Positions 1,044 through 19,651 of a stretch of 64,000 nucleotides of DNA are shown here, piece by piece. A model generated the notes under the pieces. That model saw only the letters and a list, made by a program, of their open reading frames with translations. It was not told where the DNA came from and ran no database searches. Numbering within the stretch: the first letter of the stretch is position 1; each line of letters begins with the position of its first letter. This DNA comes from Qipengyuania profundimaris (GTDB taxonomy: Bacteria > Pseudomonadota > Alphaproteobacteria > Sphingomonadales > Sphingomonadaceae), in assembly GCF_030717945.1 (NCBI RefSeq), contig NZ_JAVAIM010000001.1, positions 371,131 through 435,130 on the forward strand, in the 5' to 3' direction. Position numbers and translations under genes: made by a program.

Positions 1044-1100
1044 CGGCGCTGTGGCTGGCGGGAAAACGCCTGCCGGTCAAGCGTAGCGGCGCCGGGGGCG

Positions 1101-5807: not shown

Positions 5808-5959
5808 GGGGACCTCTCGCAGGATCGCGTAGTATCGTTACTTCGCCGCGCAATTTTCGACTCATGCGGCGAAGATGTCAGAGGCCGCGCCTAGGCCCCT
5901 TGTCGGCGCGTCGCAAGGTGGCACATGCGCAGACGTGCATTCCTATGCGGAACGGCGGG

Positions 5960-6952
5960 TTACGCTACGGCGCGTAAGGGCTGGAGCGCGTCCATCGCGA
6001 GTTCGAGCGACCGGATGCGCGCCGCAGGGTCATAAGTGCTGCCGCCGAAAACGATCTCGTCCGCACCGGTACGCGCGACGAAGCTCTCGACCGTGTCGCG
6101 GGCCATTGCGGGCGTGCCGATCGCGCTCGCCTGGCCGATGTGGGCGAGCATGGCCTGCGCCTGAGGGGGGAGGCTATCGCGGAAGTTCTCGCGCGGCGGG
6201 GGCAGCTTTCCGGGCCGCCCGGTGCGCAGCGCGACGAAGGCCTGCAACTGCGAGCTGGCGAGATATTCGGCTTCGGCCTCACTGTCGGCGACGAACAGGT
6301 TCATCGCCGCCATGACATGCGGCTTCTCGCAAGCCTCGGATGGCTGGAAATCGCGGCGATATAGTTCAAGCGCGGCATCGAGGTGATCGGGCGCAAAATG
6401 GCTGGCGAAGGCGTAGGGCAGGCCGAGTTTCGCGGCCAGCTGCGCGCCGAACAGGCTCGATCCGAGCATCCAGAATTCGGGCTCTGCGCCGCGTCCGGGT
6501 GTGGGGTGGATCGCCCCTTCGCCCTTCATCAGCGCCATCAACTCGACGACGTCCTGCGGGAACATCTCGGCGGCGCGGTGCAGGTCCTTGCGCAGCGCCC
6601 GCTGCAATTCCGGTCCCGCCCCCGGTGCGCGACCAAGGCCCAGGTCGATGCGGCCGGGAAACAGCGCGTCGAGCGTGCCGAATTGCTCGGCGATCTGGAA
6701 CGGCGTGTGGTTCGGCAGCATGATGCCGCCCGATCCGATGCGGATGGTGCTGGTGGCATTGCCGATATGCGCGAGCACGACCGAGGTCGCACCGCCGGCA
6801 ATGCCTTCCATCGCGTGATGCTCGGCAACCCAGAAGCGTTTGCAGCCCGCGGCCTCGGCAGCTTTCGCAAGGTCGGTCGCGGCGGTGAGCGCATCGCCGA
6901 CGCTGCCGCCTTCGCGAACGGGGACGAGGTCGAGGACGGAAAAATCGGTCAT
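5960..6952 (-). CDS. LLM-class flavin-dependent oxidoreductase (MsnO8-like)
   Basis: A 330-residue luciferase-like monooxygenase. It opens with SVLDLVPVREGG and continues with FWVAEHHAMEGIAG, ATSTIRIGSGGIMLPNHTPF and GRIDLGLGRAPG, the hallmark order of the MsnO8 branch of bacterial-luciferase-fold enzymes, which use reduced FMN and oxygen. Length is normal for the family. The substrate cannot be told from sequence; many members are uncharacterised. Its ATG overlaps the TGA of the upstream TPR gene (ATGA, 4 bases), so translation is probably coupled within a hydrolase–TPR–LLM operon. The FMN would have to be reduced by a separate reductase, and none is adjacent. Confidence 0.9.
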   Translation of the reverse strand: MTDFSVLDLVPVREGGSVGDALTAATDLAKAAEAAGCKRFWVAEHHAMEGIAGGATSVVLAHIGNATSTIRIGSGGIMLPNHTPFQIAEQFGTLDALFPGRIDLGLGRAPGAGPELQRALRKDLHRAAEMFPQDVVELMALMKGEGAIHPTPGRGAEPEFWMLGSSLFGAQLAAKLGLPYAFASHFAPDHLDAALELYRRDFQPSEACEKPHVMAAMNLFVADSEAEAEYLASSQLQAFVALRTGRPGKLPPPRENFRDSLPPQAQAMLAHIGQASAIGTPAMARDTVESFVARTGADEIVFGGSTYDPAARIRSLELAMDALQPLRAVA

Positions 6953-7788
6953 TGGGCAAGTTGCTCCAGATAGGCGCGGGCGCGGTCGGCTTCTGTGCTT
7001 TCGGGTGCGACCAGCAGGACCGATTCGAAGCTGCGCCGCGCGTCGTCGTCGCGGCCGGACAGGGCGGCGATCACGCCGGCCTCAAGCCCGATCACCGGGT
7101 TGCGCGGATCGATTTCGGCAGCACGCTCGATCTGCAGCTGCGCCTCGCCCAGCCGATCAAGGCGGCGGGAAAGAGTTGCGGACAGCAACCATGCGCGCGC
7201 ATTGGCCGGGTCCTCTGCGCGGGCCGAGGCGAGCGCCTCTGCCGCATCCTCCTGACGACCCGCCGCCACGAGCGCACGGGCGCGGTCGACATGGAGACTC
7301 GCTGCGAGAGCGCCGTCGCCCGCTGCCGTCGCATGGGTGATGGCCTGCGCGAACAGCGGCTCGGCAGTGGCGGGCTTGTCGTCGGCTAGCGCGGCATTGC
7401 CGGCCATCGCCCCCAGCCGGGCACGGTAGGCGGGCAGGGTATCCGGCGCTTCGGCACTGGCAGTCTCGAAGATCGTGCGCGCCTCTTCGTATCGCTCCAG
7501 TCTCACCAGCCCCAGCCCGAGACAATGGGCCGACTGCGCCAGTTCGAGATCGCTTTCCACCTGCACGCGCCAGGCCTGCGCGAAATCGAGCGCCTCTTCC
7601 GGCTCGCCGGTCGTCAGCGCCAGGCACCGCGAGAGATATTCGCTGCGCGGGGACGGCGTCGTTTCGATAATATCGGCAGTCTCGCGCTGCGGGCGATTCG
7701 CCAGCTCATCGGGCACGTCGGGAATCGCGCCGACGGATGGATTGGGGCCGACCTGCATGATCAGCAGGGCAAGGGCGGACATGAACAC
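6949..7788 (-). CDS. Tetratricopeptide-repeat protein, probably exported
   Basis: 279 residues. The first 20 or so are hydrophobic (MSALALLIMQVG), suggesting a short signal or anchor. The rest is alpha-helical with TPR spacing: paired helices such as CLGLGLVRLERYEEARTIFE and repeated A/L patterns to the end. TPR domains bind partner proteins; none is evident. The start is ambiguous. GTG at 7788 is 8 nt from a GGAG and directly follows the TGA of the upstream hydrolase, while an in-frame ATG lies at 7782. I chose the GTG because of SD spacing. Its 3' end overlaps the LLM oxidoreductase start. Confidence 0.8.
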   Translation of the reverse strand: MFMSALALLIMQVGPNPSVGAIPDVPDELANRPQRETADIIETTPSPRSEYLSRCLALTTGEPEEALDFAQAWRVQVESDLELAQSAHCLGLGLVRLERYEEARTIFETASAEAPDTLPAYRARLGAMAGNAALADDKPATAEPLFAQAITHATAAGDGALAASLHVDRARALVAAGRQEDAAEALASARAEDPANARAWLLSATLSRRLDRLGEAQLQIERAAEIDPRNPVIGLEAGVIAALSGRDDDARRSFESVLLVAPESTEADRARAYLEQLAQ

Positions 7789-8529
7789 TCAGACGTCTCC
7801 GGACAAAGATTCGACCGTGCGCAGCAGCAGGGCGATATCCTGCTCGCGCGACAGCCGGTGATCGCCGTCCTTAACCAGCAGCAAGTGTACCGCGTCCGAA
7901 CGCAGCGCTTCGGCCAGCTTCATGCTGATCTGCCACGGCACGTCGGCATCGCGCTGGCCGTGGAGCAGGCGCACCGGCGCATCGATCGCGATTTCGCCGT
8001 CGAGCAGGCGCTGCTCTTGCCCGTCGGCGAAGAAGCCCGGATGCATCGGCGTGGGCTCGGGGCCATAGGGATTGGGATCGTAGACCGTCTCGCCTGCGCG
8101 TAATTTCGCCTTGTCCTCGTCGGAGCGACCCCATTCGGTGAAGTCGGGCGCGGAAGCGATGCCGACCAGTCCGGCTAACCGCTCGCCCAGTGCGATGGCG
8201 ACCAGCAACATCAGCCAGCCGCCCATGGACGAGCCGATCACGATCACGCGGCCCTCGACATGCGCATCGATCAGCGCGAGCACTTCTTCGGCCCAGCGCG
8301 ACAGCGTGCCGTCGGCGAAGTCGCCCCCGCTCGACCCGCAACCCGAATAATCGAGCAACAGGCAGCCCTGCCCGCGCGCCTTCGCCCAGGCGACCAGCGC
8401 AGTCGCCTTGCCGCCATCCATGTCGGACATGTAGCCGGGCAGGAAAACGAGCGTCGGACCCGCGCCCGGCGAATGGCGGAAGGCGATGCGTCGACCGTCG
8501 GGCATGGTATGGAATTGCGTGTCGCTCAT
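7789..8529 (-). CDS. Alpha/beta hydrolase
   Basis: 246 residues with a clear alpha/beta-hydrolase layout: LVFLPGYMSDMDGGKA after the first strands, LLLDYSGCGSSGG as the oxyanion-side loop, nucleophile elbow GSSMGG with Ser101, a late Asp in LHGQRDADVPW and the His in KDGDHRL. The arrangement resembles small cytosolic serine esterases/thioesterases (ABHD10-like). The substrate is unknown. It is the first gene of a tightly packed minus-strand operon with the TPR and LLM genes: its TGA abuts the GTG of the TPR gene. Confidence 0.88.
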   Translation of the reverse strand: MSDTQFHTMPDGRRIAFRHSPGAGPTLVFLPGYMSDMDGGKATALVAWAKARGQGCLLLDYSGCGSSGGDFADGTLSRWAEEVLALIDAHVEGRVIVIGSSMGGWLMLLVAIALGERLAGLVGIASAPDFTEWGRSDEDKAKLRAGETVYDPNPYGPEPTPMHPGFFADGQEQRLLDGEIAIDAPVRLLHGQRDADVPWQISMKLAEALRSDAVHLLLVKDGDHRLSREQDIALLLRTVESLSGDV

Positions 8530-8586
8530 GGCGTCAAGATGTCGAACCTCGGGGGCGCGAATGCAACCCCGGCTCCGGGCGAAGCG

Positions 8587-9663
8587 TCAGAAGAAGTCGA
8601 ACTCCTCGACGTCGGGATCGTCCTCGCACATCGACTGGAGCGCGGCGAATTCCCGTTCCGAGAGGACCGGCGGATAGTCCGCGCCTTCCTTCGCCGCGTT
8701 CTTGTAAGCCCGCGCTCGCTCGCCCGCCGCAGGATGGCTCGCCAGCCACCCCGTCATCGCATTGCTCTCGCCATCGTCGCCATATTCCTCGGCCATGCGC
8801 TCGAAAAAACCCGCTGCGCCCAGCGGCGAAACATCGCTTTCGGCGAGGCGCGCGCGGGCATAGTCGTCCGCCTCCCTCTCGGCATCGCGCGAATAGCCCA
8901 TGGAGGCGACGCCAAAGACCGTGTCGCCGACGCCCGAGTTTGCGCCCGCCAGCAGCACCGACATGCCAAACTGGCGCAGCAGCGCGGTCATCACATGCCG
9001 CTCCCGCACATGGCCGACCTCGTGGGCGAGCACACCGGCGAGCTCTTCCGGGCTTTCGGCCTGCTGGATGAGGCCGTCGAACAGCAGCACCTGCCCGCCG
9101 GGCAGCGCCACCGCATTGACCATGTCGATATTGGCAACGTCCGCATTCACCTGCGTCGTCGCCGGATCGACCTCGTCGAGCAGCTTGGCAAGGGCTGCGT
9201 CGCCTTCGGGCGTGCTGCACAGCCGGCCGCCGAAATCGCCGATCATCGCCTGGCCCAGATTGCGCTCCCAGCTTTCGGGCACGCGCGGGCCGAGCCATTC
9301 GGGCGCGGTCATGAAGAGCGCCACGGCGACCGCGCTGGCCGCGGCGAAAATCACCGCCGCCTTGCCAAGGCCCAGCCGGTCGATCCACGCGCCGTATTCG
9401 CTTTTCTCAGGCAAATGCCGTGCCAGCCCCGGCGGCATGTCGGCGGGCAGGGTCAGGCGGAAATCGGTCTCGCTCTCGCGGCGATAGAAGACATGCTCCC
9501 CCCGCGCCTCGCCGAAGCGCAGGTCGTCCAGCGGCACGGCAAGCTGGCTGGTCGGCGCATCGAGCAGCAATTGCCCCCCGCCGTCCCAGCGCGCATGGCC
9601 TTCGTGCCGGACGGCCGAGTGTCCGTCGTACCAGCTGGCCGGGACCTGGAAGCTGTCGTCCAT
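8587..9663 (-). CDS. M48-family membrane zinc metallopeptidase
   Basis: 358 residues from the ATG at 9663, which lies 4 nt after the stop of the DUF898 gene; a longer frame upstream is open but would overlap that gene. The zinc motif HEVGH is at about residues 214–218 (VLAHEVGHVRERHVM), and the third-ligand glutamate is probably in YSRDAEREADDYA. A membrane span lies near residues 115–135 (AAVIFAAASAVAVALFM). An N-terminal region of about 100 residues precedes it, as in the peptidase partners often found with YjgN-like proteins. The catalytic domain is probably periplasmic; proteolysis of envelope proteins is the family role. The C-terminus is acidic (EDDPDVEEFDFF). Confidence 0.88.
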   Translation of the reverse strand: MDDSFQVPASWYDGHSAVRHEGHARWDGGGQLLLDAPTSQLAVPLDDLRFGEARGEHVFYRRESETDFRLTLPADMPPGLARHLPEKSEYGAWIDRLGLGKAAVIFAAASAVAVALFMTAPEWLGPRVPESWERNLGQAMIGDFGGRLCSTPEGDAALAKLLDEVDPATTQVNADVANIDMVNAVALPGGQVLLFDGLIQQAESPEELAGVLAHEVGHVRERHVMTALLRQFGMSVLLAGANSGVGDTVFGVASMGYSRDAEREADDYARARLAESDVSPLGAAGFFERMAEEYGDDGESNAMTGWLASHPAAGERARAYKNAAKEGADYPPVLSEREFAALQSMCEDDPDVEEFDFF

Positions 9664-9667
9664 CGGC

Positions 9668-10759
9668 TCAGATCGCGCCCATGTCGAAAGCGTCGAGAAG
9701 GCCCTCGCCATGGCGCGCGGTCTTGGTGGTCGACTGCGTCAGTTCGTCGAGCAGGATTTCCCCGCTCGCCTCCAAGTGAGTGATGAAGAACTTCCAGTGC
9801 CGATAGGACAGGAAGATAAGGCCGATCCCGAACGTGAAGACTACCAGCAGCACATCGCCGACCAGCAGCTTGAACCACTCCAGCGTCGAAGCCTCGAAGC
9901 TGAAATCGAGATCCTTCCACCGCGTCGCGCCAACCACTTCGCGATAGAACTTGGCGTAGAAAGCCACCGCAATCAGGCCGAGGCCGAGATAGAAGAACAG
10001 GACGAGGCCAAAAATCCCAAGCACACCGCCGAAAGCTGCGCCATCCTCGCCGCCTATTCCATAGCCTGCAAGCATGCCCATCCCCGCCATGAACAGGGCT
10101 CCGAAGAACATTATAAACGGGGCAAGATAGAACAGCAGGAACCGGACAAACACGCCGCCCGCCTCGGCATTGGCTTCGAAGCGATAGGGGCCGAAGCTCA
10201 TCTTGCTCCAGCGCTCGTTCCACAGGCTGGTCATCGACCAGGGGATCAGCAGGCCGAGCGGGAGCCAGCCGACGATCGTCTTCCACATATAAGACAGGCC
10301 GAACACGAAACCGGGATTGTCGCTCCCCCCGCGGATGCCACGCCAGCGCGTGCGCGACAGGCGATAGCGCAGGGCGCGAAAGCGCGCGACGCCCATCAGG
10401 TAGAAGATCGCGACGAATGCCAGCACGCCCAGGGCCGCGCCGATCTCTTCATAACCGCGCGCGATCAGCGCCTGCGCGCCGAAGGAGATGATGAAATAGG
10501 GCAGTCCGAACAGGACCAGCACGATCAGGAAGCCGAAGAACAGCTCCTTGCCCGTTCCGGCCCATTCGAGATGCTCGTCGACGAAGCGGCTGCGCGACCA
10601 CAGATATTGCCGTTCGCGGGTAGTGGCCCAGAAGCGGTAGATTCCCAGCGTGACGATGGTCAGCAGCAGATTGGTGAAGGCGATCGGTGCGAATTCGCGC
10701 CAGTTGCCTTCGAACACGAAAGCGCTTTCGCCGCCCTCGCCATCGTATTTACCGTGCAT
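9668..10759 (-). CDS. YjgN/DUF898 family multi-span membrane protein
   Basis: 363 residues with repeated modules of a membrane span followed by an aromatic/basic patch, for example LGIYRFWATTRERQYLWSR near residue 40 and later WSKMSFGPYRFEANAEAGG. This is the signature of DUF898 (YjgN family), whose function is not established. There are about seven hydrophobic segments. It is followed 4 nt later by the M48 peptidase gene, so the two are almost certainly co-transcribed and perhaps act as a unit at the inner membrane. It is separated from the upstream XRE operon by a strong terminator at 10768–10812. Confidence 0.88.
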   Translation of the reverse strand: MHGKYDGEGGESAFVFEGNWREFAPIAFTNLLLTIVTLGIYRFWATTRERQYLWSRSRFVDEHLEWAGTGKELFFGFLIVLVLFGLPYFIISFGAQALIARGYEEIGAALGVLAFVAIFYLMGVARFRALRYRLSRTRWRGIRGGSDNPGFVFGLSYMWKTIVGWLPLGLLIPWSMTSLWNERWSKMSFGPYRFEANAEAGGVFVRFLLFYLAPFIMFFGALFMAGMGMLAGYGIGGEDGAAFGGVLGIFGLVLFFYLGLGLIAVAFYAKFYREVVGATRWKDLDFSFEASTLEWFKLLVGDVLLVVFTFGIGLIFLSYRHWKFFITHLEASGEILLDELTQSTTKTARHGEGLLDAFDMGAI

Positions 10760-10767
10760 GATGCAGT

Positions 10768-10812
10768 AAAACCCCTTCGATCCCGTCGCCGGATGCTCGG
10801 GGATCGAAGGGG
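10768..10812 (-). terminator. Rho-independent terminator of the XRE operon
   Basis: A 13-bp perfect stem (CCCCTTCGATCCC at 10772–10784 with GGGATCGAAGGGG at 10800–10812) encloses a 15-nt loop. Read on the minus strand, the stem ends in TTTT. It lies between the XRE regulator stop and the DUF898 start, so it ends the regulator operon and insulates the protease pair. Confidence 0.78.
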
Positions 10813-10834
10813 CTGTGTCAATCAGAGCGAGCGA

Positions 10835-11029
10835 CTATTCGTCGCGCTGGAAGATCTCCTCGATCGCCAGCTCGAAGACTTCGGCGATCCGGAAAGCCAG
10901 CGGCAGCGACGGGTCGTAACGCCCGGTCTCGATCGCGTTTACGCTCTGGCGGCTCACCTCGAGAAGGTCGGCAAGCTGCTGCTGGCTCCAGTCGCGTTCG
11001 GCGCGCAGCACCTTGAGGCGGTTCTTCAT
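10835..11029 (-). CDS. Small XRE-family helix-turn-helix regulator
   Basis: 64 residues, essentially one Cro/C1-type HTH: MKNRLKVLRAERDWSQQQLA, then recognition helix SRQSVNAIETGRYDPS, and LAFRIAEVFELAIEEIFQ. This is the compact class (about 65–70 residues) usually encoded next to a small membrane protein whose expression or activity it is linked to. Its ATG overlaps the TGA of the upstream membrane-protein gene (ATGA), so the two are translationally coupled. It is the last gene of a three-gene operon and may act on the promoter region at 11823–11875. Confidence 0.92.
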   Translation of the reverse strand: MKNRLKVLRAERDWSQQQLADLLEVSRQSVNAIETGRYDPSLPLAFRIAEVFELAIEEIFQRDE

Positions 11030-11643
11030 AGCGCGCCCCAGGTGCCGTAGCTGATGCGGTTGGCAATCGCTCCGACGAACTGGCCGAAGAACCATGCGAC
11101 CGCCCACCAATAGGCGTCGAGGTGGATGACGACGCCAGTCGATTCGAGGAACCCCCACAGCGTGGCGGCGGCAAGTGCGAAGCCGGTGGCGATCAGCGAC
11201 TGGCGTACGATCAGCATGCGCAGAAACTCGTCCTGCTCCTCGACGATCAGCCGGCCAATCGCCCAGAACACCCCGATGATGGCGAAGGCGGGTAGCAGCG
11301 CCAGCGCCACGCGAGCGGCGGTCGACGGATCGCCATCGCTCAGCAACGAGACCTGCAACGCGATGGCAACCAGATAGGCGCTGCTGAACACCATCACCCG
11401 CTTGATATAGCGTTGCTGTGCCTCGCCCTTGGCGCTGCAGGGCCCGCGATTGTTCGCGGCCCGGTTGGCCGCGCGCATCGTCTGGAAGAACAGCGCTGCC
11501 GGAACGATCAGGAGGATCATGGCCGTGGTCGAGTTGATGGCATCGCTCAGCGCCAACCCCATCGCTGCGCCGAAGCTGGCGAAGGTCAGTCCGGCCCATA
11601 CGGGCACCGAGCTGCGGAGCGCGTTTTCGCTGCTATCGGTCAC
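11026..11643 (-). CDS. Multi-span membrane protein paired with XRE regulator
   Basis: 205 residues from a GTG at 11643 that overlaps the TGA of the preceding small gene as GTGA. A longer open frame to 11673 exists but would overlap that gene more. Six or so hydrophobic stretches are visible (VWAGLTFASFGAAMGLAL, AMILLIVPAALFFQTM, FSSAYLVAIALQVSLL, VALALLPAFAIIGVFWAIG, SLIATGFALAAATLWGFLE, WWAVAWFFGQFVGAIA). I do not recognise a named family with confidence. Pairing with a small XRE regulator resembles two-gene membrane/regulator modules known in many bacteria. Function unknown. Confidence 0.75.
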   Translation of the reverse strand: MTDSSENALRSSVPVWAGLTFASFGAAMGLALSDAINSTTAMILLIVPAALFFQTMRAANRAANNRGPCSAKGEAQQRYIKRVMVFSSAYLVAIALQVSLLSDGDPSTAARVALALLPAFAIIGVFWAIGRLIVEEQDEFLRMLIVRQSLIATGFALAAATLWGFLESTGVVIHLDAYWWAVAWFFGQFVGAIANRISYGTWGAL

Positions 11644-11822
11644 GAAAAGACGCCCTTGAGCGACGCGCAGCATTTGCCCGGCCGGATCGTCGCGATCGCC
11701 AGTGCCGGGAAGACAATCAGCATCGGTTCACCGACCGCGGCGTCAATTGCGCCCAGAGACACGCCGAGCGCGGTCAGCAGCATGGCAATGGCGAAGCCAC
11801 TGGAAAGGATTGTACGGTTCAT
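11640..11822 (-). CDS. Small membrane protein, first gene of XRE operon
   Basis: 60 residues with two hydrophobic segments (ILSSGFAIAMLLTALGVSLGA and PMLIVFPALAIATI) and a short basic, Cys-containing tail (RPGKCCASLKG). The start is well supported: AAGGAG lies 8 nt upstream of the ATG. Its stop overlaps the GTG of the next gene by four bases. No family is recognised. Confidence 0.7.
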   Translation of the reverse strand: MNRTILSSGFAIAMLLTALGVSLGAIDAAVGEPMLIVFPALAIATIRPGKCCASLKGVFS

Positions 11823-11843
11823 TGGTCAAGCTCCTTTGCTATG

Positions 11844-11855
11844 GTGTAAAGTGTA
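11844..11855. promoter_or_regulatory. Direct repeat GTGTA-AA-GTGTA upstream of XRE operon
   Basis: Two GTGTA units with a 7-nt period lie about 20 nt upstream of the small membrane-protein ATG, in the divergent region shared with phoD. On the minus strand the element reads TACACTTTACAC and would sit around the core promoter of the operon, with ATGACA as a possible -35 just upstream. Placement suits an autoregulatory operator for the XRE protein, but this is inference. Confidence 0.35.
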
Positions 11856-11983
11856 TTTGTCATAGGAGGCGGGTTATGTCAAGCACACTTTCCAATATGG
11901 AGCGCGACCTTTCCAGCAGTGTCGAAAGACTTGTCATGCAGGGGTCATCCGGCGCAGGCAGCAGAATGAGTGAGGAGAAACAA

Positions 11984-13645
11984 ATGATCGCCACCGAACC
12001 GCCTGCTGCCGCGAAGCTGCCGTCGCTCGATCGCCGGAGCGTGATCAAGGGTGGAGTGCTCGGCGCAGGCCTCGCCGGGATGCCGCTGGCCGCGCAGGTG
12101 CCCGTACGCGGCTTCACGCATGGGGTCGCAAGCGGCGAGCCTGCGGCGAATGGCGTGTTGGTGTGGACTCGGTTCGTGGCTAATCAGGACACGCCGCTGA
12201 CCTATGAGCTGTCGGAAAGCGCCGATTTCGGCAGTATCGCTGCGGGCGGCACGGTCACGGCCAGCGCGGATAACGACTGGTGCTGCAAGGCGACCGCGCG
12301 CGGCCTTGCCCCGGCACGCTTCTATTACTTCCGCTTCGTCGCGCCCGACGGTTCGATGTCCGATGTCGGCCGCACGAAGACACTGCCCGAAGGCCCGACC
12401 GAGCGGTTCCGCATGGCGGTGTTCTCCTGCTCCAACATCGCCTTCGGCTGGTTCAACGCCTATGCCCATGCCGCCGATGCGAACGCCTTCGACTGCACGC
12501 TGCATTTGGGCGATTATTTCTATGAATACGGGCCCGGCACCTACCCCTCCGCCGACGAGGCCTTGTCCGGCCGTACGCTGTTCCCGGCGAAGGAGATCGT
12601 CAGTCTCGACGAATACCGCCGCCGCTATGCGCTCTATCGCAGCGACCCGGATCTGCGCCGCCTCCACCAGATGTATCCGATGATCAGCGGCTGGGACGAT
12701 CACGAGAGCGCGAACGATTCGTGGGAAGGCGGCGCCCAGAACCACCAGCCCGATAGCGAGGGCGAATGGTCGGTCCGCAAGGCGGCGGCGATCAAGGCCT
12801 ATCGCGAGTGGATGCCCGTCTCCGACGAGCCTTGGGCGGCTTACGAAATCGGCGATCTCGCCACGCTGTTCCGCCTGGAAACGCGACTAACCGCGCGGGC
12901 GGAGCAGTTTTCCTATGGCGATATCCTGACCGGCCAGACCTCGGCCGACGAGGCGATGACTGCGCTGACCGCCTTCCGCGAGGGCGACTATCGCGATGCC
13001 TCGCGCGAATTGCTCGGGGCGCGGCAGCAGGCGTGGCTCGCCGATGGCATGCGGCGCTCCGCCGGGGCAGGCAAGCCGTGGCAGGTGCTGGTGCAGCAGG
13101 TGCTGATGGGCAACCTCTCCACCGCCCCGGGTCTGACCGAGGGCCTGCCGGGCGATCTTCCCGACTTCATTCGCCAGCGCATCCTGGCAGGCGCGATGGC
13201 CGGGCGGGCGGAACTGCCGCTCAATATGGACGCATGGGACGGCTATCCCGCCGCGCGCGAGCGATTGTTGAAATCCGCGCTCAATGCGAATGCGAACCTG
13301 ATCAGTCTTGCTGGCGACACGCACAATGCCTGGGCCTTCGATCTCGATCACGCCGGGCAGCCGGTCGGCGTTGAGTTCGGCGTGCAGGGCGTCACGTCGC
13401 CGGGGCTCGAAAGCTATCTGTCGTTCATTCCGAAAGACCGGCTGGAGCGCGCGATCGTCGACCACAATCCGCAGCTTCAATGGATGGATTCGGCGCGCCG
13501 CGGCTATATGGCGGTAGAGCTCACGCCCGGCAGCGCGTCGAGCGAGTTCCGCTTCCTCTCCAGCGTGCGCGAGAAGGGCGCGGGCGTCTCCGCAACCCAC
13601 CGCATGACCACGTTGGCGGGCAACCGCAAGCTGCAAGCGACTTGA
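11984..13645 (+). CDS. phoD: Tat-exported PhoD-type alkaline phosphatase
   Basis: 553 residues from the ATG at 11984, preceded by GAGGAG at good spacing. The N-terminus is a twin-arginine signal (LDRRSVIKGGVLGAGLAG, Arg17–Arg18). PhoD hallmarks follow: FTHGVASGEPAANGVLVWTR, LGDYFYEYG, MISGWDDHESANDSW and SLAGDTHNAW, which supply metal ligands. It should hydrolyse phosphomonoesters or diesters in the periplasm under metal cofactor. An in-frame ATG at 11876 has an even better SD (AGGAGG, 6 nt away); it would add 36 residues and push the Tat motif to residues 53–54. No Pho box is obvious in the 160-nt upstream region. Confidence 0.9.
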   Translation: MIATEPPAAAKLPSLDRRSVIKGGVLGAGLAGMPLAAQVPVRGFTHGVASGEPAANGVLVWTRFVANQDTPLTYELSESADFGSIAAGGTVTASADNDWCCKATARGLAPARFYYFRFVAPDGSMSDVGRTKTLPEGPTERFRMAVFSCSNIAFGWFNAYAHAADANAFDCTLHLGDYFYEYGPGTYPSADEALSGRTLFPAKEIVSLDEYRRRYALYRSDPDLRRLHQMYPMISGWDDHESANDSWEGGAQNHQPDSEGEWSVRKAAAIKAYREWMPVSDEPWAAYEIGDLATLFRLETRLTARAEQFSYGDILTGQTSADEAMTALTAFREGDYRDASRELLGARQQAWLADGMRRSAGAGKPWQVLVQQVLMGNLSTAPGLTEGLPGDLPDFIRQRILAGAMAGRAELPLNMDAWDGYPAARERLLKSALNANANLISLAGDTHNAWAFDLDHAGQPVGVEFGVQGVTSPGLESYLSFIPKDRLERAIVDHNPQLQWMDSARRGYMAVELTPGSASSEFRFLSSVREKGAGVSATHRMTTLAGNRKLQAT

Positions 13646-13678
13646 GAAGCGCAGGCACCCGCGCTATCTGTCCGGCCA
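13642..13678 (+). promoter_or_regulatory. Candidate promoter of the thrS leader transcript
   Basis: TTGAGA at 13642–13647 and TATCTG at 13665–13670 are separated by exactly 17 nt. The expected transcription start, 7–8 nt past the -10, falls at about 13677–13678, which is the A of the leader-peptide ATG. That would make the leader mRNA leaderless. The -35 overlaps the phoD stop codon. The -10 is weak (3 of 6 consensus bases). Confidence 0.5.
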
Positions 13679-13749
13679 TGACGCAACTGCGCTTCACCAC
13701 CACGACTACCACAACCCCGGGTCTCCGGGGGCGGATGGTCGCGGCCTAA
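13678..13749 (+). CDS. Threonine-rich leader peptide upstream of thrS
   Basis: 23 codons, [20 protein letters not shown] plus VAA and a TAA stop. Eight of the residues are Thr, seven in an unbroken run at codons 7–13 that uses all four Thr codons (ACC four times, ACG, ACT, ACA once each). It is followed at once by a hairpin starting at 13715 and by alternative hairpins ahead of thrS. A run of codons for the amino acid charged by the downstream synthetase is the signature of ribosome-mediated attenuation. There is no SD; the predicted promoter would start the RNA at the AUG itself. The first five codons differ from those of thrS at only two or three bases, possibly by chance. The run of one amino acid and its place argue strongly against a random short frame. 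Confidence 0.8.
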
Positions 13750-13820
13750 CCGCAGCCACCGCCGCCCGGTTTCGGGTGGCGCGGCGTTCCTCTCGAAACC
13801 GGAAATAACGCAAACGCCGC
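13715..13820 (+). promoter_or_regulatory. Attenuator-like RNA between leader peptide and thrS
   Basis: Pairings found by hand: segment 1:2, CCCCGG 13715–13720 with CCGGGG 13725–13730 (loop GTCT); segment 2:3, GGGCGG 13729–13734 with CCGCCC 13762–13767; segment 3:4, GCCGCCCG 13761–13768 with CGGGTGGC 13773–13780 (one G·U, loop GTTT). A ribosome stalled on the Thr run would cover segment 1, freeing 2 to pair with 3 and preventing 3:4. Two more perfect stems compete or stack: CCGGTTTCG 13766–13774 with CGAAACCGG 13794–13802, and GCGGCGTT 13781–13788 with AACGCCGC 13813–13820. No long T tract follows 3:4 (only TTCCTCTC), so termination strength is uncertain. Confidence 0.65.
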
Positions 13821-13873
13821 TTCAATGGCGCGCGCGCCTGTGTCATGGCGCGCCAAACGACGGACGAGATACG

Positions 13874-15895
13874 ATGACGGAACTGCTCAAGATCAGCCTG
13901 CCCGACGGTTCGGTGCGCGAAATGGAACCCGGCAGCACGCCCGGCGATGTCGCCGCCGCGATCGGACCCGGCCTTGCCAAGGCCGCCATTGCCGCGCGCG
14001 TGGACGGCGAACTGCGCGACATCAACCGCCCGTTCGAGGGCGATGCCGAACTCGCACTGGTCACGAGCCGCGACGAGGAAGACGCGCTCGAGTTGGCGCG
14101 GCACGATTTCGCGCACGTCCTCGCCGAAGCGGTCCAGTCGCTCTATCCCGGCACGCAGATCACCTTCGGCCCCGCGACGGACGACGGCTTCTATTACGAT
14201 GTGAAGGCACCCGCCGATCGCGAGCCGTTCAGCATGGACGATCTCCCCGATATCGAAGAGGAGATGCGCCGCATCATCAAGGCCGATAAGCCGCTGCGCC
14301 GCGAAGTCTGGAGCCGCCAGCAGCTGATCGACAAGTGGGAAGCCGAAGGCGAGGTCTTCAAGGCCGAATGGGCCAAGGAACTGCCCGAGAACGAGGAGCT
14401 GACGGTCTACTGGTCGGGTGAGGACTGGCTCGACATGTGCCGCGGTCCGCATCTCGCCAGCACGGGCAAGCTCGATCCGCAGGCCTTCAAGCTCACGCGC
14501 GTTGCCGGGGCCTACTGGCGCGGCGATCAGAATAATCCGCAGCTCACGCGCATCTACGGCACCGGCTGGCTCAACAAGAAGCAGCTCAACGCCCACCTCA
14601 CGCGTCTGGAGGAAGCCGCCAAACGCGACCACCGCAAGCTGGGCCGCGAGATGGATCTCTTCCATTTGCAGGAAGAGGCGCACGGCAGCGTCTTCTGGCA
14701 TCCCAAGGGCTATCGCATCTGGCGCGAGCTGGAGGCTTATATGCGCCGCAAGATGGACAAGGCCGGCTATCGCGAGATCAAGACGCCGCAGCTGATGGAC
14801 GTGCGCCAGTGGGAGCAGTCCGGCCACTGGGGCAAATATGCCGAGAACATGTTCGCCGTGCCCGACATGGTCCCGGAGGTAGAGGAGCTCGGAGACGGAC
14901 CGGCAAACCCCAGCGTCGCGCCCGATGCGGACTGGATGGCGATCAAGCCGATGAACTGCCCGGCGCATGTGCTGGTATTCAAGCAGGGCATCACCTCCTA
15001 TCGCGACCTGCCAATTCGGCTGGGCGAAATGGGCTGCTGCCACCGCAACGAACCGCATGGCGCGCTTCACGGGCTGATGCGCGTGCGCCAGTTCACGCAG
15101 GACGATGCGCATATTTTTTGCACGGAAGATCAGGTGGTCGAGGAGGTGAAGGCCTTCATCGAGCTAGCCGACCAGGTCTATCGCGACTTCGGTTTCACCT
15201 ACGACGTCAAGCTCGCCCTGCGCCCCGAAAAGCGATTCGGTTCGGACGAGGACTGGGACAAGGCGGAGCAGGAATTGCGCGATGCCGTCGCGGTCAGCGA
15301 CATGCAGGGCGAAGGTGACGGCAAGCTGGAAGAACTGCCCGGCGAAGGCGCCTTCTATGCGCCCAAGCTCGAATGGCACCTAACCGATGCGATCGGCCGT
15401 ACCTGGCAGGTCGGCACGATCCAGGGCGACCGCGTGCTGCCCGACCGCCTCGATGCGAGCTATGTCGGCGAGGATGGCGAGAAGCACCGCCCTGTCATGC
15501 TCCACCGCGCGATCTTCGGCAGCTACGAACGCTTCATCGGCATCCTGATCGAGCATTTCGCAGGACGTCTTCCGGTCTGGCTCGCGCCCGTACAGGCGGT
15601 GGTCGCGACCATCGTCTCCGACTCCGACGATTATGCGAAGGAAGCGGTCGCCAAGCTGGAAGCCGCGGGCATCCGCGTCGAGAGCGATCTTCGCAACGAG
15701 AAGATCAACTACAAGGTGCGCGAACACAGCCACGCCAAGGTCCCGCACCTGCTGGTGGTCGGCAATCGCGAGGCCGAGGAAGGCACCGTCGCCATTCGCA
15801 CGTTGGGCGAGAAGGAGCAGCGCGTGATGAGCCTCGACGAGGCGATCGCGATGCTCAAGGCCGAAGCGACGCCGCCCGACCTGCGCGAGGGCTAG
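13874..15895 (+). CDS. thrS: Threonyl-tRNA synthetase
   Basis: 673 residues, full length for bacterial ThrRS. Order of domains: TGS domain (about 1–63), editing/SAD domain with HDFAHVLAE (His77, His81), class-II catalytic core with [11 protein letters not shown] (zinc Cys near residue 362), motif 2 region [28 protein letters not shown], and a C-terminal anticodon-binding domain ([13 protein letters not shown] onward). It charges tRNA-Thr in the cytoplasm. A 124-nt untranslated stretch separates it from a Thr-rich leader peptide, so expression is probably tuned to Thr-tRNA supply by attenuation. The SD is weak (GACGAG). A TauE-type permease follows 7 nt later. Confidence 0.97.
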
Positions 15896-15902
15896 GCCGC
15901 CG

Positions 15903-16649
15903 ATGGACCTGCTTGCGGGCTACGGCACGGCGGCCATCGTCGCCGCGCTGGTTGCCGCTTTCGGCTCGGCCTTCGTGCGCGGGCTGACCGGGTTCGGCAT
16001 GGCGATCCTGATCGTGCCGATCCTCGCGCTGGCACTGACGCCGGTGGATGCAGTGCTCCTGACGAACTTCCTTTCGGTCTTCATCGGCCTCTCGGAAATC
16101 CGCCGCCTGCTGCGCGATGCCGAGCGCTCTGCCTGGGCGATCATCGGGCTGGTTGCGCTGACGACGCCTGTTGGGCTGTTCCTACTCGGCGCGACCACGC
16201 CGGACATCGCCCGCGTGGTCATCGCCTTCATCGCCCTGTCGGCCTTCGTCGCCATCCTCCTGCCACGCCGGGGCGCTCTGGAGCATCATCCGGCGACAAC
16301 CGGCGGGGTGGGGATATTGAGCGGGCTGATGACCGGCTATGCCGGCATGCCCGGCCCGCCGGTCGTGCCCTATTACGTGGGGCGCGATATCCCGCGCGCA
16401 GTGGCGAAAGCCTCCATGTTGCTGATTTTTACCTGCGCCTCGTCCGCTGGGCTGGTGAGCGGCGCGGCGCTGGGCATGCTCGACTGGGCGCTCGCGCTGC
16501 TTGCGGCTCTGCTGTTCCCGGCCGTGCTCGCGGGCAATTGGCTGGGCAACAGGGTGTCGGGCCGGATCGAGGACCGCACCTGGCGCATTTGCGTGGGCGC
16601 GGTGCTAGGCGGGGCGGCGCTCGCCGCGCTGTGGAAGGCGTTCGGCTGA
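15903..16649 (+). CDS. TauE/SafE-family sulfite/anion exporter-like permease
   Basis: 248 residues, almost wholly hydrophobic with about eight membrane spans. The first half-repeat has GSAFVRGLTGFGMAILIVPILAL and the second GGVGILSGLMTGYAGMPGPPVVPYYVG, the paired motifs of the TauE/SafE (DUF81) family. Members move organosulfonates, sulfite or other anions across the inner membrane; the substrate here is unknown. The ATG lies 7 nt after the thrS stop, so it is likely co-transcribed, though no functional tie is evident. Confidence 0.85.
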   Translation: MDLLAGYGTAAIVAALVAAFGSAFVRGLTGFGMAILIVPILALALTPVDAVLLTNFLSVFIGLSEIRRLLRDAERSAWAIIGLVALTTPVGLFLLGATTPDIARVVIAFIALSAFVAILLPRRGALEHHPATTGGVGILSGLMTGYAGMPGPPVVPYYVGRDIPRAVAKASMLLIFTCASSAGLVSGAALGMLDWALALLAALLFPAVLAGNWLGNRVSGRIEDRTWRICVGAVLGGAALAALWKAFG

Positions 16650-16658
16650 TTTAGCGTG

Positions 16659-16787
16659 TCAGAAAGGCAGGACCGGCCCGGCAAGGGCCAGTGCGAGGCC
16701 GCATCCGCTCACGATCAGTGCGCGCGCCATGTCGGTCGCCGAGATCGGGGCGACATGCGTACGGGCGAGAGCGATAGCCTTGGCCAT
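16659..16787 (-). CDS. Small putative membrane peptide (42 aa)
   Basis: A short frame starting MAKAIALARTHVAP and ending in a hydrophobic segment ARALIVSGCGLALALAGPVL. It fills most of the interval between the permease (convergent, ending 16649) and the agmatine deiminase stop at 16822. The pattern looks like a single-span membrane protein, but the SD is poor and the frame stays open upstream into the antisense of the next gene's frame. Coding is plausible, not proven. Confidence 0.4.
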   Translation of the reverse strand: MAKAIALARTHVAPISATDMARALIVSGCGLALALAGPVLPF

Positions 16788-16821
16788 GCCGCCATTGTCG
16801 CGGGCAAATCCTAACGAAGCG

Positions 16822-17814
16822 TTAAAATATGGCTCTCGCCGCGGGCATTTGCTGGCTGGCGCAATGGAAACCTCCGCCTCCGGCAAGCACGGCATCGGCG
16901 GGAAGGCCGATTGTCGCGCGGTCGGGGAAGAGTTCGGCGATGGCCGCCACCCCGTCCTCGTCATGCGGGCTACCGAAGGTCGGAACGACGACCAAATGGC
17001 TGGTGATCGCGAAATTGGCGTAGCTGGCGGGCTCGACATGATCGCCGCTGGTAACGAGGCCGGGCGAGGGAATCTCGGCGACCGCCACCCCGGCGTCCTG
17101 TGCGCGCCGATTGGCGTCGGCGTAAATCGCGGCATTGGGATCGTCGTTGCCGGTCGCGCGCGGCAGGCACAATGTGTTGCGGCCGACGAAGCGCGCGAGA
17201 TTGTCGACATGCCCGTCGGTATGATCGTTGATCAGCCCGTCGCCGAGCCAGAGCACGCGTTCGAAGCCGAGATCGCGCTGCAGCCGCGCCTCGATGTCTT
17301 CGCGCGAGAGCTGCGGATTGCGATTGGGGTTGAGCAGGCATTGCTCGGTCGTGACGACGAGGCCCGCGCCATCGCCATCGATCGCGCCGCCTTCGAGGAT
17401 CCAGTCCGACACCTCGAGCGGCAGGCCTGCATCCTCCGCCAGTTCCGCGCCGACGGTCTGGTCGCCTTCCATCAGGAACTTGCCACCCCAGCCGTTGAAG
17501 CCGAAGCGCCGTGCCATGCGCTTGCCCTCGCGGTCGGCCAGCACCAGCGGCCCGGTATCCCGCAGCCAGACGTCGCCATAGGTGCGGCGCTCGAGCCTGA
17601 CCGATCCGGTGACCAATTGCCGCGCCCGCGCCTCGTTCGCCCCATCGCGGACCAGCAGGCGAACCTCCTGCCCGCTTTCGGCTACTGCATTGGCGAATGC
17701 CGCGATCTGCTCCTGCGAACGCGGCAGGACTTCGGGCCATTCATCGGCATTGTGCGGGAAGCCGATCCACAGCCAGTCCTGCGGCGCCCATTCGGGCGGC
17801 ATGGTGTAAGGCAT
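16822..17814 (-). CDS. aguA: Agmatine deiminase
   Basis: 330 residues of the peptidylarginine-deiminase-like family. It opens MPYTMPPEWAPQDWLWIGFP, with the W-x-P-H-like region (FPHNADEWP), VWLRDTGPLVL and RRFGFNGWGGKF as guanidino-group-binding strands, LEGGAIDGDG, and the catalytic end motif GGGGFHCASQQMP with the nucleophilic Cys at residue 318. It converts agmatine to N-carbamoylputrescine and ammonia, a route to putrescine. The partner N-carbamoylputrescine amidase is not in the window. It lies 27 nt downstream of the M28 peptidase gene, probably in one transcript. Confidence 0.92.
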   Translation of the reverse strand: MPYTMPPEWAPQDWLWIGFPHNADEWPEVLPRSQEQIAAFANAVAESGQEVRLLVRDGANEARARQLVTGSVRLERRTYGDVWLRDTGPLVLADREGKRMARRFGFNGWGGKFLMEGDQTVGAELAEDAGLPLEVSDWILEGGAIDGDGAGLVVTTEQCLLNPNRNPQLSREDIEARLQRDLGFERVLWLGDGLINDHTDGHVDNLARFVGRNTLCLPRATGNDDPNAAIYADANRRAQDAGVAVAEIPSPGLVTSGDHVEPASYANFAITSHLVVVPTFGSPHDEDGVAAIAELFPDRATIGLPADAVLAGGGGFHCASQQMPAARAIF

Positions 17815-17841
17815 GGATCGGTTCTTTCGCTTAAAGGGCGA

Positions 17842-19545
17842 TTACGACCCGCAAGGCCCGTCCGCGCAATCGGCATCGCGCGTGGCCTTGAACTCGTCGC
17901 CCGGGTTCCAGTTGGGCCAGCTGTCGCTTTCCGCCAGCATGCGCCCGATGCGGTAGAACAGTTCGAGATCGCTCATCACTCCGGACCAGTCCCAGTCCGG
18001 GTTATATTCGTCCTTCGGCCCGTGATAGCGGTTCTCGGTATAATCGCGCGCGACCTCTGCCCCGGCGATCGTGCCGCCTGCCACCAGGTCCTCTCCGCCG
18101 TCGATATACAGCATCGGCACGCCGCGCTTGGCGAAGGCGAAATGGTCGGAGCGGTAGTAATAGCCTGCTTCCGGCTTCGGATTGGGCGTCGCCACCCGGC
18201 CTTCGGACTCCAGCGCCGCGTTCATGAACAGGTCGAGTTCCGATTTGCCCGGACCGACGACGGTCACGTCCCTGGCCGGGCCGGCAACCTGGAAGGCGTC
18301 CATGTTGATGCCGCCGACCGTCTGGTCGAGCGGGAAGACCGGATTGGCGGCGTAATAATCCGCGCCGAGCAGACCCGATTCCTCGGCCGTTACGGCGAGG
18401 AAGACGAGGCTGCGGTCTGCCGCGCCTGCCTTTGCATGCGCTTCGGCCAGTGCGACCAGTGCGGCCGTGCCGGTCGCATTGTCGACCGCGCCGTTGCAGA
18501 TGTCGTCGCCATCGGGCGCGGGCTTGCAGCGGCCGAGATGGTCCCAGTGGGCGGTGTGCATCACATATTCGTCCGGCCGCTCGCTACCCGGCAGCATGCC
18601 GATCACGTTACGCGACTGGAAAGTGCGGATATCGTTTTCGAAGCTGGTCGAGGCGGTCAGGCCGAGCGGCACGGCCTGGAAGCCCTTCTGTTTGGCTGCT
18701 GCGGAGAGCTGCGCGAGGTTCTGGCCTGCCGCCTGCATGATCCGTTCGGCGACGCTCTTCTGCACCCAGCCGTTCATCTTGGTCATCATCGGCGCATTCG
18801 CACCGCGCGCGGCATAGGCCTGCGGACCGCTCCAGCTGCTTTCGACGACGTTCCAGCCATAGGAGGCAGGCGCCGTATCGTGGATGATGATCGCGCCCGC
18901 CGCGCCCTGGCGGCCGGCCTCTTCGTATTTATAGGTCCAGCGCCCGTAATAGGTCATGGCCTTGCCGCCGAACGGTCCTTCCAGCGTCTGCGCGCCGAAA
19001 TCGGGATCGTTGACGAGGATGACCGCCGTCTTGCCGCGCATGTCGAGCCCGGCATAATCGTTCCAGCCCTTTTCGGGCGCATTGATGCCGTAGCCGACGA
19101 ACACCAGCTCGCTGTTTTCGAGCGAGGTCGCCGCGTCTTCGCGATAGGAGACGCCGACCCAGTCGTCGCCGAAGTCGAGGCTCATCGGTCCGCCGCTGCC
19201 GCCTGCGATGGTGAGCGGGGCGAAGTCCTTGCCGGTGATTTCCACCAGCGGCACGTTCTGCACCCAGCTGCCGTTATTGCCCGGGGTCAGGCCGGCGCGC
19301 GTGAATTGCTCGATCAGATAGGCGACGGTCTTTTCCTCGCCCGCCGTGCCGGGCGCGCGACCTTCGAACTCGTCGGAAGAAAGCCGCTCGGTCACGGTCT
19401 TCATCGTCTGCTCGGACAATGTGCCTTCGGCGACCTCCGGTACGTCGATGCCGGTCGGGGCGGCGCTCATGTCGCCAGCCGGTTCCATGGTCGTGCAGGC
19501 GGACAGCAACAGCGCTGTCGTGGCGGCAAGGGTCAGGCGTTTCAT
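17842..19545 (-). CDS. M28-family zinc peptidase, lipoprotein
   Basis: 567 residues from the ATG at 19545, chosen because GAGAGG lies 9 nt upstream and a lipoprotein signal follows immediately (TLAATTALLLSACTT, lipid-modified Cys). A PA-like insert (roughly residues 130–290, GSWVQNVPLVEITG to SYGWNVVESSWSGP) precedes the peptidase domain. Zinc-binding motifs: MHTAHWDHLGRC, GAVDNATGTAALVALAEA, AVTAEESGLLGADYYA, and HFAFAKRGVPMLYIDGG. Aminopeptidase or carboxypeptidase activity on exported peptides is likely; the true substrate is unknown. It is divergent from glnE (106 nt). Confidence 0.92.
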   Translation of the reverse strand: MKRLTLAATTALLLSACTTMEPAGDMSAAPTGIDVPEVAEGTLSEQTMKTVTERLSSDEFEGRAPGTAGEEKTVAYLIEQFTRAGLTPGNNGSWVQNVPLVEITGKDFAPLTIAGGSGGPMSLDFGDDWVGVSYREDAATSLENSELVFVGYGINAPEKGWNDYAGLDMRGKTAVILVNDPDFGAQTLEGPFGGKAMTYYGRWTYKYEEAGRQGAAGAIIIHDTAPASYGWNVVESSWSGPQAYAARGANAPMMTKMNGWVQKSVAERIMQAAGQNLAQLSAAAKQKGFQAVPLGLTASTSFENDIRTFQSRNVIGMLPGSERPDEYVMHTAHWDHLGRCKPAPDGDDICNGAVDNATGTAALVALAEAHAKAGAADRSLVFLAVTAEESGLLGADYYAANPVFPLDQTVGGINMDAFQVAGPARDVTVVGPGKSELDLFMNAALESEGRVATPNPKPEAGYYYRSDHFAFAKRGVPMLYIDGGEDLVAGGTIAGAEVARDYTENRYHGPKDEYNPDWDWSGVMSDLELFYRIGRMLAESDSWPNWNPGDEFKATRDADCADGPCGS

Positions 19546-19651
19546 CGTTGCGAACCTCTCTCTCGTGTCCCGTTCTCGGCCGCGCTTCTTGCAGCATGGC
19601 GGCGCGAGGGCAAGCTTGCGCGTGCGGCGCAGTGGCGGCAGGGAAGCGGCG

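Follow-up and report, generated by a model that had tools for sequence, protein, structure and literature searches.

The stretch of Qipengyuania profundimaris DNA analysed here, 64,000 nucleotides (nt) in length and referred to as the window, contains a gene for threonyl-tRNA synthetase (ThrRS), thrS, preceded by a short open reading frame rich in threonine (Thr) codons. The leader and its neighbour are arranged as follows.

13678 to 13749, plus strand: open reading frame of a 23-amino-acid leader peptide, probably on a leaderless mRNA; read from the sequence, with 23 amino acids also in 90 of 137 relatives' leaders.
13696 to 13716, plus strand: run of seven Thr codons, the putative sensor; read from the sequence, with Thr conserved in 137 leaders.
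13874 to 15895, plus strand: thrS, threonyl-tRNA synthetase of 673 amino acids; Pfam domains TGS, tRNA_SAD, tRNA-synt_2b and HGTP_anticodon.

The leader frame opens with the ATG at 13678-13680, continues for 23 sense codons and closes with the TAA at 13747-13749. Eight of its codons specify Thr, seven of them in succession, and 124 nt separate its stop codon from the thrS ATG at 13874. A first-pass annotation of the window, made from the letters alone, had described just such a frame before thrS, and the sequence bears it out. Its naming of thrS is likewise confirmed by Pfam, which recognises the TGS, tRNA_SAD, class II core and anticodon domains in the product. The nearest named ThrS among the matches listed is that of Qipengyuania sp. 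XHP0207, at 96% identity. Across all six frames of the window, the only runs of at least seven identical residues are the Thr heptamer of the leader and its antisense image.

Presence of the leader in close relatives was a check proposed in the first-pass annotation. Of 23 same-genus loci, counting that of the window, 21 have a Thr-rich frame, defined by at least four Thr in eight codons, that ends before thrS (two further same-genus genomes, G006 and G008, yielded no locus). Of the 80 named loci, 23 carry a Thr-rich leader, in the genera Parerythrobacter, Erythrobacter, Porphyrobacter, Parapontixanthobacter, Croceicoccus, Pelagerythrobacter, Altererythrobacter, Allopontixanthobacter and Qipengyuania, and it is also present in some, not all, loci of Novosphingobium, Blastomonas, Sphingopyxis and Sphingomonas. 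A control scan took in 95 Sphingomonadaceae loci, 23 of them same-genus and 72 named, over the 400 nt upstream of thrS. At a threshold of at least five Thr in eight codons, it returned 42 of the 95 loci in the sense direction and none in antisense or inside thrS; at four or more, the counts were 47, 5 and 2, respectively. Locus L019 is among the sense counts, with a Thr-rich frame formed by the end of the gene upstream; L019 and L090, which both exceed the threshold, were excluded by eye from the leader-positive loci as parts of other frames. A chance origin of the Thr run is rejected on these comparisons.

A covariance model, R1, was built from an alignment (A1) of 33 leaders, again including that of the window. 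A1 derives from 44 leader-positive loci, from which L037 was left out as its strands 3-6 are missing, and from which two loci with inserts (L002, L004), three near-duplicates (L016, L040, L043), four divergent loci (L009, L036, L082, L093) and one with a long loop (L042) were further dropped. R1 matches 139 of 397 Sphingomonadaceae genomes in 37 of 96 genera, with a single match each at E of at most 0.001; part of this sample consists of genomes in A1, for example G000, that of the window, such that training and matches overlap, and large genome searches use stricter filters. In a sample of the order, 67 of 246 genomes are matched, all of them Sphingomonadaceae, with a second, weak match in two (E 0.005 and 0.008), while in a sample of the class the matches number 5 of 385, the sole one outside the family being weak (E 0.003). 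Among 138 fetched matches, 130 contain at least five Thr in eight codons, seven contain four and one contains three, a count that is not independent of the model, as the Thr run lies partly inside it. One match without an ATG in range (L184) was omitted from leader-level counts, which therefore comprise 137 of the 138. All 138 are followed by thrS in the same orientation, in 12 after one intervening gene, and the ThrS N-terminus is within reach in the other 126. The amino acid that would be sensed and the gene downstream therefore agree throughout.

The codons of the leader reveal two contrasting patterns. Across the 137 leaders, Thr is encoded 490 times by ACC, 214 by ACT, 190 by ACG and 43 by ACA, and the Thr run of the window's leader keeps both ACT and ACA while its thrS contains neither. 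In many of the relatives inspected, ACT occupies a fixed place in the run. Conversely, the Arg-Gly-Arg that follows the Thr run in 89 leaders is encoded by CGG in 89, GGG in 83 and CGG in 88 of them, even though the thrS of the window prefers CGC over CGG by 43:2 and GGC over GGG by 39:2. As Thr is retained with any of its codons and the Arg-Gly-Arg codons are fixed, it thus appears that the leader frame is under two selections, the Thr run being kept as peptide and the CGG GGG CGG stretch as an RNA element.

This RNA element forms part of a series of strands that could pair in alternative ways between the Thr run and thrS.

13716 to 13720, plus strand: strand 1 (CCCGG), partner of 13725-13729; from fold and covariation, with the register seen by eye to be shifted in some relatives.
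13725 to 13729, plus strand: strand 2a (CCGGG), partner of strand 1; from fold and covariation.
13730 to 13734, plus strand: strand 2 (GGCGG, from the GGG CGG codons), partner of 13759-13763; the stem extends around the stop codon.
13759 to 13763, plus strand: strand 3 as the partner of strand 2 (CCGCC); from fold and covariation.
13762 to 13768, plus strand: strand 3 as the 5' arm of 3:4 (CCGCCCG); from covariation, with a conserved position after the stop codon.
13773 to 13779, plus strand: strand 4 as the 3' arm of 3:4 (CGGGTGG); from covariation.
13767 to 13776, plus strand: strand 4 as the 5' arm of 4:5 (CGGTTTCGGG); from covariation, its pairs being absent from the alignment model.
13792 to 13801, plus strand: strand 5 (CTCGAAACCG), partner in 4:5; from covariation.
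13782 to 13788, plus strand: strand 4' (CGGCGTT); from covariation, its pairs being in the alignment model.
13813 to 13819, plus strand: strand 6 (AACGCCG), partner of strand 4'; from covariation.

The helices were evaluated on a second alignment, A2, comprising 100 of the 138 fetched matches; three weak rows were dropped before the helix, tail, fold and spacing counts were made. For each helix, the share of cells paired and the number of both-side changes were compared with the maximum of 200 column shuffles, and all five helices exceeded the shuffles on both measures. Helix 1:2 has 85.8% of its cells paired and 20 both-side changes versus a shuffle maximum of 11, 2:3 has 95.1% (10 versus 5), 3:4 has 97.8% (24 versus 15), 4:5 has 91.1% (43 versus 23) and 4':6 has 94.4% (78 versus 32), where it should be considered that the alignment model held the pairs of 1:2, 3:4 and 4':6 and so favours these, that the model lacked 2:3 and 4:5, and that kinship among the rows inflates every shuffle comparison. 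Variants of 4':6 such as GGCGTT/AACGCC, GGTGTC/GACACC and GGCGTC/GACGCC illustrate the compensatory changes. On the 33-row alignment, the helices likewise exceed shuffled columns and slid partners in cells paired and covariation score, while 1:2, 3:4 and 4':6 taken as a set did less well on two measures: 16 of 500 shuffles equalled them in pairs with both-side changes, and 409 of 500 did so in further pair types. Covariation of the stems, another check named in the first-pass annotation, is therefore seen beyond shuffled expectation, and neither this check nor that of presence in close relatives refuted the reading given there. Helices 4:5 and 4':6, identified here by comparison among relatives, appear as additions to the scheme originally drawn. 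Helices 2:3 and 3:4 share positions 13762-13763 and are mutually exclusive, and both covary. Helix 3:4 overlaps 4:5 as well as 2:3, and 4:5 and 4':6 interleave, so that the latter two would be either alternatives or halves of a pseudoknot.

The distances along the leader are also conserved. Of 100 loci, 82 have 10 residues between the last Thr and the stop; in 93 there are 17 nt from the start of strand 2 to the stop codon, and in 89 the 5' arm of 3:4 starts 11-14 nt beyond that codon. A ribosome covers about 12-15 nt on each side. With this footprint and these spacings, a ribosome positioned at the stop codon would cover strand 2 and just free strand 3, whereas one stalled at the Thr codons would leave strand 2 free. 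Folds were predicted for 99-100 loci, with no pseudoknots allowed, and a helix was scored when half its pairs occurred in the minimum-energy fold. When only the RNA past a stop-positioned ribosome is free, 3:4 forms in 78 of 99 loci and 4':6 in 79; when the RNA is free from strand 1 on, 2:3 forms in 63 of 99 and 3:4 in 37, numbers close to those obtained with no ribosome (62 and 34). With strand 5 made and strand 6 not yet made, 4:5 leads at both ribosome positions (64 and 74).

Two promoter-like arrangements flank the switch.

13642 to 13670, plus strand: putative promoter P1, with -35 TTGAGA at 13642-13647, a 17-nt spacer and -10 TATCTG at 13665-13670; from the sequence and relatives.
13821 to 13849, plus strand: promoter-like block P2, TTCAAT, 17 nt and CATGGC; from a pattern in relatives.

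Only 7 nt separate the TATCTG of P1 from the leader ATG. Among the relatives, 120 of 137 leaders have the TA of a -10 box at a distance of 13 or 12 nt upstream of their ATG. The 103 leaders that offer just one candidate ATG were counted apart, as the ATG with the best -10 box was taken where there were several, and 97 of them show this spacing; its background at other anchor points just upstream is 5.2%. The -35 motif TTGA/TGAC peaks at -36 to -34 relative to the ATG. A motif resembling a Shine-Dalgarno sequence precedes the ATG in just 3 of 137 leaders, and position -1 is C in 77%. Because the ATG follows the -10 box by 12-13 nt and almost never has a Shine-Dalgarno sequence, the leader mRNA is probably leaderless, with transcription starting at or next to the AUG. 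The P2 pattern, TT[ACG][ACT]NN-17-CA[AT][AG][CG], occurs in 61 of 124 leader-positive and 12 of 52 leader-negative thrS upstream regions, compared with mononucleotide-shuffle means of 1.1 and 0.6; the pattern was composed after sight of the sequences, 40 of the 52 leader-negative regions are without it, and the 124 are what remains of the 138 once L192, L247 and the 12 loci where thrS is out of reach are set aside. P2 keeps its sequence on both sides of a variable middle, and comparable boxes were seen by eye between the inserted gene of some relatives and thrS, from which we infer that it may be a promoter of thrS. A hairpin around the block is marginal (85 loci, -14.8 versus -13.9 kcal/mol, with 1 of 300 re-deals as low).

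Within the window, a gene for a PhoD-like phosphatase lies upstream of thrS (11702-13645) and a TauE/SafE-family gene begins 7 nt downstream (15903-16649); the E. coli thrS, unlike that of the window, is adjoined by infC. In the 12 genomes noted above, a single gene of about 165 codons is situated between strand 6 and thrS, as established by coordinates in all 12 and by reading the sequence in five (L249-L253, from G417, G046, G099, G376 and G355). Pfam relates its product, below the cut-off (E 6.6e-4, 19.9 versus 27 bits), to the Rv2179c-like 3'-5' exonuclease domain. None of the 41 nearest genomes gave a match to this protein, which is therefore uninformative about the window itself. An apparent truncated remnant of the gene was noticed by eye in G353 (L192). 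Other loci depart from the common arrangement in other ways. In L002 and L004, an insert of about 95 nt with a long palindrome, which looks like a small repeat element, lies in the 4':6 loop between strands 5 and 6, and strand 6 is kept. L037 has the leader and no strands 3-6, while in the same-genus L019 (L254) the leader is missing and strand 6 and P2 are present.

A Thr-codon leader peptide coupled to a switching RNA before thrS is strongly supported by several features taken together: its conservation, the selection seen at the codon level, the covariation of the helices and spacings that suit a ribosome. Taking sensor, switch and direction as a whole, it is likely that thrS is controlled by a ribosome-mediated attenuator that senses the charging of tRNA-Thr. 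The activity of P1, the translation of the leader, the stalling and the direction of control are what we infer in addition. RNA from P1 would start at or beside the AUG of the 23-residue leader peptide. If Thr-tRNA were scarce, the ribosome would stall in the Thr run and leave strand 2 exposed, so that it pairs with strand 3 across the stop codon; with 2:3 formed, strand 4 would become available to strand 5 and RNA polymerase would proceed into thrS. If Thr-tRNA were ample, the ribosome would reach the stop codon, cover strand 2 and free strand 3, such that 3:4 and then 4':6 could form and P1-derived expression would be cut. The P2-like block would probably supply a basal level.

Several observations weigh against this reading. 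At the output step, 100 loci were searched for runs of at least four T within the 12 nt past three of the helices: none follows 3:4, 10 loci have one after 4:5 and 2 have one after 4':6. An ordinary U-tract intrinsic terminator at 3:4 is thereby rejected; the first-pass annotation had itself flagged the weak tail of 3:4, which proves to be a family-wide property. As regards distribution, the same-genus loci L019 and L021 are without the leader, none is visible in 57 of the 80 named loci, including Sphingobium and most Sphingomonas and Sphingopyxis, and 258 of the 397 family genomes have no R1 match, although a missing match is not proof of absence. Where the exonuclease-like gene is inserted, it is this gene, and not thrS, that comes first after the switch. 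Of the hairpins that had been described as exclusive in the classical order, 2:3 and 3:4 do exclude each other, but the exclusion of 1:2 and 2:3 is weak: in its five-pair form 1:2 does not overlap 2:3, both occur together in the predicted minimum-energy fold, and by eye a six-pair register of 1:2 would share one base with 2:3. In further predictions, RNA free from position 24, where the ribosome edge is just past strand 1, favours 3:4 over 2:3 (64 versus 51 of 99 loci), RNA made only to position 84 is dominated by 3:4 (94 versus 27 of 99), and full-length folds contain 4:5 in just 12-27 of 99 and 1:2 in 22-25 of 100. The predicted folding thus backs the switch in part, and folding energy alone would not enforce it; since the outcome varies with the length of RNA made, the order of events during transcription would matter. 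Finally, P2, if active, would bypass the control, and the switch would then set only part of thrS expression.

The same sensor and switch, and hence still the ribosome-mediated attenuator, might act through Rho-dependent termination, RNA polymerase pausing or ribonuclease (RNase) access in place of an intrinsic terminator, a route that is slightly less likely than not. The absence of T runs after 3:4 favours it, as do indications from elsewhere in the clade. In 19 same-genus loci (L278-L302), a run of at least four T lies within 60 nt of the model end in 1 of 9 RNase P genes and 0 of 10 transfer-messenger RNA (tmRNA) genes, where the model end need not equal the transcript end, and positions 1-20000 of the window contain 6 terminator-like sites versus 12.6 in shuffles, fewer than expected. 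Going by these counts, the clade may end its transcripts by means other than U-tract terminators; since the RNase P and tmRNA genes mostly lack a T run and terminator-like sites are few, the missing tract does not exclude termination. However, nothing positive indicates Rho or a nuclease, no such site having been tested, and the stretches past the helices are slightly richer in T than background (2.9-3.1 versus 2.1 T per 12 nt).

Alternatively, the switch could act on translation by hiding the start site of the downstream gene, as might be imagined for the 12 genomes with the exonuclease-like gene, in which the R1 match ends just before that gene's start codon (five read as sequence). Yet 50-99 nt separate strand 6 from thrS in 91 other loci, alifold detected no structure between strand 6 and thrS in 91 loci, and the first 16 nt after strand 6 pair with the thrS ribosome-binding region more weakly than when re-dealt (-6.5 versus -7.5 kcal/mol). 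Masking of the thrS ribosome-binding site was rejected on this last comparison, and start-site hiding in general is considered very unlikely. It is highly improbable that the Thr run is incidental and that the RNA structures serve another signal, such as ThrRS binding of the E. coli thrS operator type or a T-box. While thrS is indeed regulated otherwise elsewhere, by the operator in E. coli and by T-boxes in Firmicutes, here Thr identity is kept as codons vary, and the position of Thr is fixed relative to strand 2 and the stop. In addition, no T-box or other Rfam element matches at the gathering level anywhere in the window, and a search of 13600-13900 at E of at most 1 returned one unrelated match, with 12.9 bits versus a cut-off of 70. 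A leader RNA or peptide acting mainly in trans, with control of thrS a minor matter, would resemble rnTrpL/peTrpL of Sinorhizobium, where the small mRNA is, according to passages of the source (PMC7298713), leaderless as it probably is here, and it would accord with a promoter-like block belonging to thrS itself. This is nevertheless very unlikely, given that a trans-acting RNA does not need thrS downstream on the same strand, where all 138 fetched matches have it.

The ribosome-mediated attenuator is therefore preferred as the account of sensor, switch and direction. Its complete architecture, with a leaderless leader peptide, the set of 2:3 and 4:5 opposed to that of 3:4 and 4':6, a possible 4:5/4':6 pseudoknot, termination free of U-tracts and an apparently sparing use of such tracts in the clade, would be a distinct one, a possibility that is less likely than not. 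Should the attenuator be real, ribosome-mediated sensing in proteobacteria would join the ThrRS operator, the T-box and the Streptomyces leader as a means of thrS control, and the switch would be present in approximately a third of the sampled genomes (139 of 397) of a large environmental family. It would also allow attenuation to be tested in alphaproteobacteria of high GC content, in which U-tract terminators appear to be scarce, and its roughly 140 natural variants, with their losses and inserted gene, could be used to separate sensor, switch and output.

Among the matches listed there is no literature report of a thrS leader peptide in sphingomonads, most subscription journals being outside the search. 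Lopatovskaya et al. 2010 (Mol Biol 44:128) reportedly deals with attenuation of amino-acid and aminoacyl-tRNA operons, and may contain thrS predictions. Known thrS control follows other routes: the T-boxes of Firmicutes bind uncharged tRNA and the E. coli thrS operator binds ThrRS, and neither uses a leader peptide. They share with the switch proposed here the regulation of thrS via tRNA charging or ThrRS level, and differ in binding tRNA or ThrRS directly; no Rfam family matches here. Ribosome-mediated attenuators are known from the trp, thr, his, leu and ilv operons of enterobacteria. Common to these and the leader described here are a peptide rich in cognate codons, exclusive 2:3 and 3:4 helices and ribosome-sized spacing. 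In contrast to them, the putative target here is a tRNA synthetase, there is no U-tract, helices 4:5 and 4':6 are added, 1:2 does not clearly exclude 2:3, the start is probably leaderless and a promoter-like block follows the switch. The system would work like a ribosome-mediated attenuator but, because the U-tract terminator of the classical kind was looked for and is absent, it is not classed as a plain member of that group.

Closer in phylogeny is trpLE(G) of Sinorhizobium meliloti, another alphaproteobacterial, ribosome-dependent attenuator, whose trpL mRNA is described in passages of two reports as leaderless and starting at the AUG (PMC7298713, PMC10117765); it differs in responding to Trp, in controlling a biosynthetic operon and in its 14-amino-acid peptide. 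The nearest described case found among the matches listed is thrL-thrS of Streptomyces lividans TK24, which, in the portions of the source considered, was proposed from RNA sequencing of the strain (PMC8079986). There, too, a Thr-containing leader peptide precedes thrS, the leader is leaderless, and the hairpin is without a uridine-rich sequence; unlike the sphingomonad leader, that of this actinobacterium has 18 amino acids, two of them Thr, and another sequence.

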